Notes under the pieces: model-generated
The model's database searches: none
Seen by the model: the letters and a program-made list of their open reading frames with translations, nothing else
Told to the model about the DNA's origin: nothing
Origin: a bacterium
GTDB taxonomy: Bacteria > BMS3Abin14
Length of the DNA: 11,693 nucleotides
Direction of reading: 5' to 3'
Assembly: GCA_020350725.1 (NCBI GenBank)
Contig: CP070719.1
Location: forward strand, 2,616,986-2,628,678
Part shown: piece by piece, positions 1 to 11,693 of the stretch
Position numbering within the stretch: the first letter of the stretch is position 1
Layout of the letters: each line of letters starts with the position of its first letter
Made by a program: the position numbers and the translations under genes

Positions 1-200
1 GGGCGAAGGGGCGAAAAGCGTACACGGAGACGCGGGAAGTAACAAAGTCATCGCGAGCTGTCCATGAGCGAAGCGATCTCGGGAAAGGCATTTACCACAG
101 AGGGCCACAGAGCGGTCCCTTTCAGACCGCATCACAGAGGGCCACAGAGATGTTTTCAGTTTTGGATTTTGGATTTGGGACTTTGGATTTGCAATCTAAT
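1..200. repeat. Direct repeat copy A (~200 bp, reaches window edge)
   Basis: This block is repeated at 1129-1328 at a constant offset of 1128 bases, with only two differences that I can find (positions 28 and 135). It is composite. GGGCGA words (1-16) are followed by an imperfect hairpin word around 47-84, in which ATCGC at 50-54 pairs with GCGAT at 73-77. Next come two CACAGAGGGCCACAGAG words (about 96-113 and 132-149) separated by a small hairpin (GCGGTC at 112-117 with GACCGC at 125-130). The start of a 7-base-period array follows from 153. Similarity ends at position 200, inside the heptad array. The left end may extend beyond the window. I see no gene in it. Confidence 0.95.
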
Positions 201-302
201 TACGAATCACAAATCACTGATTCACCAACTGAGAACTGTGAACGGTGAACGGTGAACCGGAAACCGTGAACCGGGAACTGGGAACGGTGAACTGGAAACC
301 CG
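153..302. repeat. Heptad array (TTTTGGA to GAATCAC to GAACCGG words)
   Basis: From 153 the sequence divides almost perfectly into 7-base words. TTTTCAG, TTTTGGA twice, TTTGGGA, CTTTGGA and TTTGCAA come first. After a short irregular stretch, GAATCAC (204-210) and AAATCAC follow. Then from 226 come CAACTGA, GAACTGT, GAACGGT twice, GAACCGG, AAACCGT, GAACCGG, GAACTGG, GAACGGT, GAACTGG and AAACCCG (to 302). The words drift in sequence while the 7-base phase is kept, apart from an occasional 8- or 9-base unit. A 7-base period is not a codon period, so the overlapping short reading frames here are not credible genes. Confidence 0.9.
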
Positions 303-8329: not shown

Positions 8330-8383
8330 CTACTCATCTACCTCCTGTATTAGACCCCTGATGGGCCGTAAGGTTTAAACATA

Positions 8384-8439
8384 AGTTTCCAGTTTCCAGT
8401 TTGAAAACCGCGATTTGTGATTCGCGATGAGTGATTTGT
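8384..8439. repeat. Heptad array upstream of htpX
   Basis: Eight consecutive 7-base words with no slip: AGTTTCC, AGTTTCC, AGTTTGA, AAACCGC, GATTTGT, GATTCGC, GATGAGT, GATTTGT. Read on the other strand they are GAATC- and GGAAACT-type words, so this is the inverted orientation of the families at 153-302. It lies in the htpX upstream region, where a promoter might be expected. Confidence 0.9.
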
Positions 8440-8466
8440 TCTTTATACCGCGCCTCCGTGTGATCC

Positions 8467-8487
8467 GAGTCCTGAGAGGCAGGACTC
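8467..8487. repeat. Perfect 8-bp hairpin between cbpM and htpX
   Basis: GAGTCCTG (8467-8474), a five-base AGAGG loop and CAGGACTC (8480-8487) form a perfect stem-loop. No U-run follows on the minus strand, so it is not a standard terminator for cbpM. It may stabilise or process the transcript. Confidence 0.6.
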
Positions 8488-8503
8488 TTCCACGTTCCAG
8501 GTC

Positions 8504-8539
8504 GTCTAATCTCCAATGCTCTAATTTCTAATCTCTAAC
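8504..8539. repeat. Inverted CATTRGAG-family words
   Basis: TCTAATCTCCAATGCTCTAA and what follows are the reverse complement of the 861-1034 word family, here as about five units just after the cbpM stop codon. Confidence 0.85.
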
Positions 8540-8562
8540 AATCTGTATTACCCCCCCCACAC

Positions 8563-10795: not shown

Positions 10796-10923
10796 AAAAA
10801 ACCTGGATCTCCTCTGCAAAAACCCTATTTAAAGTCTATCCCGGTTTCCGGATACTGTCTCTTGATCCCTGTGCTCACCGGGACCGCACCGCTGACGGAG
10901 GCAATCTCGAGGACCATAAGCCT

Positions 10924-10951
10924 AACCACAGAGGACACAGAGGGCACAGAG
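10924..10951 (+). repeat. CACAGAG word array, left arm of an inverted pair
   Basis: AACCACAGAGGACACAGAGG and a third unit (GCACAGAGA) have a period of about 9 bases. The first 19 bases match the reverse complement of 11299-11317 at 17 of 19 positions. The same word family lies inside the 200-bp repeats near 96-149 and 1224-1277. Confidence 0.85.
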
Positions 10952-11002
10952 ATAAACAGAATTCAAGATCCAGGACGCATGAACTGCCATCATCACTGGG
11001 AG

Positions 11003-11142
11003 AAAAAGCTTCTCACCTGACCTTTCCCTGTCGGGAAAGGGATTTCACGGAAATCCATCGGTTGGGCCTTTTTGGGATGGGATAAAAGCCGACTTTGATC
11101 ACAACCCAAAAGTGCCCAACTGTTCAGGTGAGAGGTTGTTTT
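11003..11142. ncRNA. Compact four-way-junction structured element
   Basis: Closing stem: TCTCACCTGA (11011-11020) with TCAGGTGAGA (11124-11133), extended outward through wobble and A-T pairs to 11003/11141. Inside, with almost no unpaired bases, are three hairpins. The first is CCTTTCCC, loop TGTC, GGGAAAGG (11021-11040). The second is GATTT, loop CACGG, AAATC (11041-11055). The third is long: GTTGGGC (11061-11067) with GCCCAAC (11114-11120), CTTTT plus GGG with CCC plus AAAAG, and a tip in which GAT-AAAG pairs with CTTT-ATC around CCGA. This cannot be chance. It could be a structured RNA (both strands end in T-rich runs) or a folded single-stranded DNA site. Family not recognised. Confidence 0.7.
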
Positions 11143-11178
11143 CGTTGCGTGACTTGCCTGTCCTGAGGCCGTCGCCTG

Positions 11179-11197
11179 CCATGAGCTTGTCGAATGG
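11179..11197. repeat. CCATGAGCTTGTCGAATGG word
   Basis: Resembles the GAGCTTGTCGAA core of a dispersed intergenic repeat that I recall from many bacterial genomes. Here its ends CCAT and ATGG can pair. A single copy is present in the window. Confidence 0.5.
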
Positions 11198-11257
11198 AAG
11201 GGCGTCTTGGTGTGAGGTTAGTTTTTTGCCCAATTTCTAAATTTAAGTAAGTAGCGA

Positions 11258-11317
11258 TTTCTCCGTGGTTCTCTGTGGACAGGTCTGCGAGTGACCGTCT
11301 CCGTGTCCTCCGTGGTT
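11258..11317 (-). repeat. Inverted CACRGAG words, right arm
   Basis: CTCCGTGGTTCTCTGTGG near the left, and CTCCGTGTCCTCCGTGGTT at 11299-11317, are reverse-strand copies of the 10924-10951 family. With the left arm they bracket a segment of about 394 bases containing the four-way-junction element. I see no flanking target-site duplication. Confidence 0.8.
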
Positions 11318-11374
11318 AAAACTCTCTTATTTCACCTATCTGTTCAGGGTACCGGCTCCTAGTATTTTTTTGAC

Positions 11375-11465
11375 CTATGATTATTCACGAATTACGAATC
11401 ACCAATCACGAATCACTGATTACGAACCACGAAATACTGAATACCGAATCCTGACTACTGAATAC
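11375..11465. repeat. Thirteen-unit heptad array upstream of the last gene
   Basis: CTATGAT and TATTCAC are followed by GAATTAC, GAATCAC, CAATCAC, GAATCAC, TGATTAC, GAACCAC, GAAATAC, TGAATAC, CGAATCC, TGACTAC and TGAATAC, with no slip in phase from 11382 to 11465. The family changes from GAATCAC to TGAATAC within one array, so the two word families are related. It ends 27 bases before the promoter at 11493. Confidence 0.93.
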
Positions 11466-11492
11466 CTGTCTTTTGATTCCCACCTGCTCTTG

Positions 11493-11548: not shown

Positions 11549-11693
11549 ATGACGATCGGTATGCTTAGACGCATCGGAAACATAGCTTTAATCGCCGTCC
11601 TCGCCCTGAATCTGATGGGCGTTTGGGCATTTGCGTCCAGTTATGACTGCGGTATGGCGTGCTGCCAGCCCAGTGAGACGGCGAAAGCCGGCA
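11549..11693 (+). CDS. Exported Cys-rich small protein, 5' part (cut by window end)
   Basis: From ATG at 11549 the frame is open for 48 codons to the window edge. The start MTIGMLRRIGN carries two arginines. It is followed by a hydrophobic core (IALIAVLALNLMGVWAFA) and a plausible signal peptidase site after AFA-S. The mature part begins SSYDCGMACCQPSET, with three cysteines in a CxxxCC pattern. Such a cluster suggests metal binding or disulfides in the periplasm, but I recognise no family. A second ATG four codons later (11561) is possible; GAGACGG before 11549 is a modest ribosome-binding site. It is the only gene of good confidence on the plus strand and has its own strong promoter. Confidence 0.65.
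   Translation, partial: MTIGMLRRIGNIALIAVLALNLMGVWAFASSYDCGMACCQPSETAKAG

Follow-up and report, generated by a model that had tools for sequence, protein, structure and literature searches.

A four-way-junction sequence between bacterial genes is probably a copy of a small DNA repeat family

Positions 11003-11142 of the window, the whole analysed stretch of 11,693 nucleotides, form a four-way junction on either strand. Judging from sequence comparisons, this feature is probably one copy of a small non-coding intergenic DNA repeat family, whose copies have been gained and lost over evolution in this bacterial family. The repeat family is multicopy and family-wide, lies outside predicted genes, is random in orientation and is polymorphic between close relatives. 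Apparently, it has been uncatalogued so far. The core had no match to any curated family in Rfam at gathering or relaxed thresholds.

Anatomy of the core and its outer arms

The RNA fold of positions 10980-11170 reached -84.8 kcal/mol (z -6.3) and none of 200 shuffles was as good, while DNA folds of 11003-11142 gave z -7.6 on the + strand and z -6.9 on the - strand. Together with the coordinates, these folds confirmed the four-way junction that an earlier note had read from the letters, including the closing stem of at least ten perfect pairs (ten in fact, 11011-11020 with 11124-11133, extended by weaker pairs), the two perfect and directly abutting hairpins and the one long hairpin. The features of the element are the following.

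10921..10951, + strand: left outer arm, period-9 array AACCACAGAGGACACAGAGGGCACAGAG; forms an inverted repeat, with similar arms in relatives
11003..11142, + strand: four-way-junction core of the repeat, from RNA and DNA folds and the covariance model match
11011..11020, + strand: closing stem, 5' arm TCTCACCTGA, from the window sequence and the alignment
11021..11040, + strand: hairpin 1, 8 perfect pairs (11021-11028 with 11033-11040), loop TGTC
11041..11055, + strand: hairpin 2, 6 perfect pairs (11041-11046 with 11050-11055), loop ACG; abuts hairpin 1
11059..11122, + strand: hairpin 3, long and imperfect with several internal mismatches; tip AAAGnnnnCTTT conserved
11124..11133, + strand: closing stem, 3' arm TCAGGTGAGA, from the window sequence and the alignment
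11258..11321, + strand: right outer arm TTTCTCCGTGGTTCTCTGTGG...CTCCGTGTCCTCCGTGGTTAAAA, enclosing a small GGTC/GACC hairpin (11282-11295)

The junction leaves only 11056-11058 and 11123 without a partner. Within the 5' arm of the closing stem, TCACCTGA is nearly invariant across the repeat family, the stem being TCACCTGA/TCAGGTGA. Identity between copies is about 90-93 % in the closing stem, 78 % in hairpins 1 and 2 and 44-46 % in the arms of hairpin 3, which are hypervariable in sequence and still keep their pairing. The third arm is thus constrained in shape, while its sequence is free. The T-rich ends described previously are real in the window copy, but they are not a trait of the family, as TTTT within 14 nt was seen in 10 of 78 copies on the + side and in 8 of 78 on the - side.

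Around the core lies an inverted repeat of larger size (about 10921-11321), whose arms are made of period-9 CACAGAGGA words; in it, 10923-10942 and 11299-11318 are 90 % complementary. When the composite 10915-11325 (411 bases) was folded, the outer arms paired with each other (z -7.1). Copies in relatives are flanked by the same arms as the window core, and in many of them the core lies inside a period-9 inverted repeat, with CACAGAGGA, CGCAAAGGA or GGGATGGAG on one side and the complement on the opposite side. The own genome holds about 30 period-9 arrays; with the exception of the one in the window, those that were read have no core and usually contain a small hairpin. Since period-9 arrays occur without the core, arms and core are separable modules, and as this holds for CACAGAGG-type arms the whole element is a mosaic. 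The arms around the core have been exchanged between copies. The closing stem forms an inverted repeat and so do the outer arms; the latter, however, vary from copy to copy and do not define the true ends of the element.

Several other arrangements were noticed among the repeats. Core variants of 69-76 nt lack hairpin 3 but retain hairpins 1 and 2 together with the closing stem (L124:2969-3043, L128:1355-1430, L130:3026-3094 and L132:3047-3115). In another group, a different palindromic repeat word, CCCTTCGACAAGCTCAGGG-like, widens the loop of hairpin 1 (L154:2998-3152, L161:6227-6383, L121:2139-2296 and L127:1452-1640), which looks as though small repeats went into the loops of larger repeats. 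Word-like short tandem repeats (CTAATCTCTAATG, TTTTGGATTTTGGACTTTGG, GAATCACGAATCAC, GTGAACCGTGAACTG and GTCCAGAGTCCAG) are dense in intergenic parts of the window (1-300, 840-1380, 8380-8560 and 11380-11470) and recur across the own genome; literature searches for these repeat words gave nothing relevant. Near-identical CACAGAGGGCCACAGAG arrays at 95-150 and 1217-1280 of the window, each interrupted by a small hairpin CGGTCCCTTTCAGACCG, lie within a longer duplication, and a similar layout with a CGTCCCTTGAGACG hairpin recurs many times in the own genome.

Copies, neighbours and turnover in the bacterial family

A DNA search of relatives recovered many copies in genomes of the same bacterial family, and 92 core copies were aligned. 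The covariance model, built from 30 copies, matched all 12 genomes of the family, 11 of them with strong copies (E down to 1.3e-30) at about 4-15 confident places in each relative; G010 (71 % complete) had only degenerate core copies. The window core itself scored 118 bits (E 2.5e-25), being among the 30 sequences used for building the model. In the own genome (2.78 Mb, one contig), which was searched by queries, we found a single full core copy, so the multiple identical copies named beforehand as a sign of a mobile element did not turn up there. At E <= 1e-5, the search of 386 genomes returned family members and one weak match (E 6.8e-6) among the 374 non-family genomes. At E <= 0.01 there were scattered weak matches outside the bacterial family, the best with 7e-5, which we took as chance. 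A degenerate exact pattern, searched across 84,980 species, had 14 matching stretches, each of them in a record from uncultured bacteria (bin582, bin676, PFL40 and SZUA-204); these are probably the same genomes as our relatives G008, G001, G011 and G007. The core pattern was not found in viral contigs. Most of the relatives are draft or partial metagenome-assembled genomes and the repeats are often situated at contig ends. G002 carries two near-identical core copies on the same strand (L040:2990-3122 and L040:3749-3881), 759 bp apart and with near-identical nearby flanks, explained either by segmental duplication in tandem or by an artefact of assembly.

None of the 92 copies overlapped a predicted gene, with genes predicted by a simple script and not by a full gene finder. 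Orientation to the neighbouring genes is random (27, 23, 13 and 10 cases for the four arrangements), and the neighbours are ordinary and varied, e.g. sigma-54 regulators, ABC proteins or GGDEF proteins. Two regulatory roles were considered and rejected: a cis-regulatory leader because of the random orientation and the ordinary, varied neighbour genes, and a transcription terminator because T-runs are not conserved and convergent genes are not enriched.

Regarding orthologous positions, the core was present in only one genome at all four loci compared between G003 and G009, which belong to the same genus. The spacers measured 342 vs 78, 762 vs 24, 413 vs 144 and 435 vs 10 bp, and at one of these loci the core-less genome still carries repeat arrays. 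In G008, a cytochrome c assembly gene and hemA are separated by a 432-bp segment holding a core copy, whereas in G011 the same genes are a few bp apart; the core copy found in G011 beyond these two genes is matched in G008 by a decayed remnant. The neighbours at the own locus, DnaJ-Hsp20 and the divergent ORF at 11549, keep their synteny in G002, G007 and G008, where the spacer without the core has roughly 500, 360 and 400 bp, vs about 880 bp in the window. A few core positions are common to several genomes, so that some copies are older. Decayed core copies are common. No target-site duplication was recognised at the inspected empty sites and the junctions were ragged, so some of the differences could be deletions and not insertions. 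The direction of each change is inferred from these comparisons.

The search for a mobilising gene covered Y1_Tnp, discussed below, and some of the immediate neighbours of copies. No linked transposase or recombinase was seen among the neighbouring proteins inspected. Beside truncated copies no transposase was recognised either: seven of the eight neighbour proteins checked were ordinary enzymes or regulators, including DapA, DapB, methylmalonyl-CoA mutase and glycyl-tRNA synthetase beta, and one had no Pfam match.

These observations bear on two other explanations. The first is a classical MITE, an internally deleted insertion-sequence derivative with terminal inverted repeats, moved by a DDE transposase that is now lost or unsampled. 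The size, the inverted-repeat ends, the intergenic location, the multiple copies and the polymorphic sites would agree with such an origin. However, it sits poorly with ragged junctions that have no target-site duplication, with arms exchanged around the core and with the failure to find a transposase near the copies, and the third arm varies far more than expected among copies of one deletion derivative. We regard this origin as unlikely, though it deserves to be kept in mind. The second explanation is a DNA site maintained by the host, e.g. for binding of a chromosome-organising protein or for absorbing supercoils, and spread by ordinary recombination or duplication. Constraint on the fold at the DNA level, the near-invariant closing stem and the presence in the whole bacterial family speak for it, but positions are mostly unconserved even within a genus, decayed copies are common and one full copy suffices for the own genome, and we find a maintained site of this kind distinctly unlikely.

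Probable pairing at the level of DNA

In the 30-copy alignment, 92.1 % of the cells were paired and two-sided changes occurred at 25 of 40 stem pairs. The covariation score was 0.303, vs 0.132 after shuffling and at most 0.154 with slid partners. For the mismatch count we used 74 full-length copies and symmetric Watson-Crick-only pairing, which does not favour G·U. The core contained 74 G·T and 101 A·C mismatches against 3,624 Watson-Crick pairs. In tRNA genes of the same loci, which served as a control, the numbers were 24 and 0, and this control is only indicative as ARAGORN itself allows G·U. The similar numbers of G·T and A·C mismatches, symmetric between the DNA strands, point to pairing at the DNA level. 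From these sequence patterns, the fold seems to be kept at the level of DNA and not as SPECIFICALLY RNA. Part of the two-sided changes could stem from template switching inside the palindrome and not from selection.

A structured non-coding RNA with a fold selected in the transcript, be it a small RNA acting in trans or a cis-regulatory leader, is the third alternative. The very strong covariation and the very stable fold are what such an RNA would display, but G·U is not in excess over A·C, in contrast to the tRNA control, copies are randomly oriented to genes, T-runs are not conserved, orthologous loci exist without the core and Rfam has no match. The mismatch symmetry together with random orientation, the lack of gene overlap and the unconserved T-runs argues against an RNA gene, a leader and a terminator alike, and we consider an RNA improbable. 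The earlier note had proposed a covariance search in which compensatory changes would support RNA. The search did find a family with abundant compensatory changes, but the RNA reading does not follow from them, because G·U mismatches are roughly as frequent as A·C mismatches, orientation is random and the sites are polymorphic between relatives. Of the two possibilities the note had offered, a structured RNA on one hand and a mobile element or a recombination site folding as single-stranded DNA on the other, the evidence disfavours the first and favours the mobile element, despite the single full copy in the own genome and the failure to find a recombinase beside the copies.

Relation to known elements and possible mode of spread

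Prokaryotic MITEs are described as short (<500 bp), non-coding, intergenic and multicopy (PMC10969869), and the core is all of these. Like ERIC/IRU and other prokaryotic MITEs, it is a short imperfect palindrome, intergenic and non-coding, with tens of copies and a taxon-dependent copy number (PMC10969869); the length of ERIC is given as about 127 bp (PMC2759123). It differs from them in being a four-way junction and not one long hairpin, in its hypervariable but paired third arm, in its different lineage, in having no target-site duplication seen and no Rfam match. With BIMEs and with REP/REPIN elements and their RAYT, it shares the intergenic mosaic of palindromic and other modules and the ability to fold as single-stranded DNA, but the core has about 130 bp and not 20-40 bp, carries no REP tag and shows no association with Y1/RAYT.

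The last point was followed through Y1_Tnp, which was present at 14 loci in 8 of the 12 family genomes. Neither the core nor the CACAGAGG arms lay near Y1_Tnp at any of these 14 loci, and no Y1_Tnp was found in G007, a genome 98 % complete with about 15 core copies. In the 30-copy alignment, the foot of the core had no conserved GTAG/GGAG or CGTC tag. The palindromic, intergenic and ssDNA-foldable core and the occurrence of Y1_Tnp genes in most family genomes would fit an element of the REP/REPIN type that a Y1 (RAYT) transposase mobilises. As the core is neither associated with these genes, which were not found in G007, nor tagged, this explanation was rejected and is in our opinion highly improbable.

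Integron attC sites are conserved in shape and variable in sequence, and they fold as single-stranded DNA. The core resembles them in all three respects, but its copies are scattered between ordinary genes and form no cassette arrays, and RYYYAAC/GTTRRRY boxes are absent from the near-invariant closing stem TCACCTGA/TCAGGTGA. Short tandemly repeated repetitive sequences of cyanobacteria have no structured core; the period-9 arms and word-like arrays of the own genome look similar to them in style.

By analogy, the core would work most like an element of the MITE/ERIC/BIME type. We do not claim membership in MITEs, because neither a target duplication nor a parent transposase was found. The element would spread non-autonomously. 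Its core may be extruded into a cruciform, or take up its fold when replication exposes single-stranded DNA, and a putative enzyme could recognise it by its two short hairpins and by the closing stem with the conserved TCACCTGA/TCAGGTGA. In the long third arm, the stem form would be needed, but not a particular sequence. We tentatively raise the possibility, which we do not rate high, that this is a new kind of DNA element, non-autonomous and recognised through its shape, namely by a four-way junction on one strand or in an extruded cruciform with a third arm of free sequence, and that the putative enzyme belongs neither to the Y1/RAYT transposases nor to the integron integrases.

The pattern is unusual in combining a near-fixed closing stem and small hairpins with a hypervariable yet paired third arm and a symmetry of mismatches pointing to DNA, and not RNA, as the molecule that folds. 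Searches for new RNAs by covariation should take note of it: where G·U pairs are not in excess and the sites are polymorphic, strong covariation can be the mark of a structured DNA repeat and not of an RNA gene. Should the junction itself be what an enzyme recognises, the family would offer a natural library of four-way-junction substrates.
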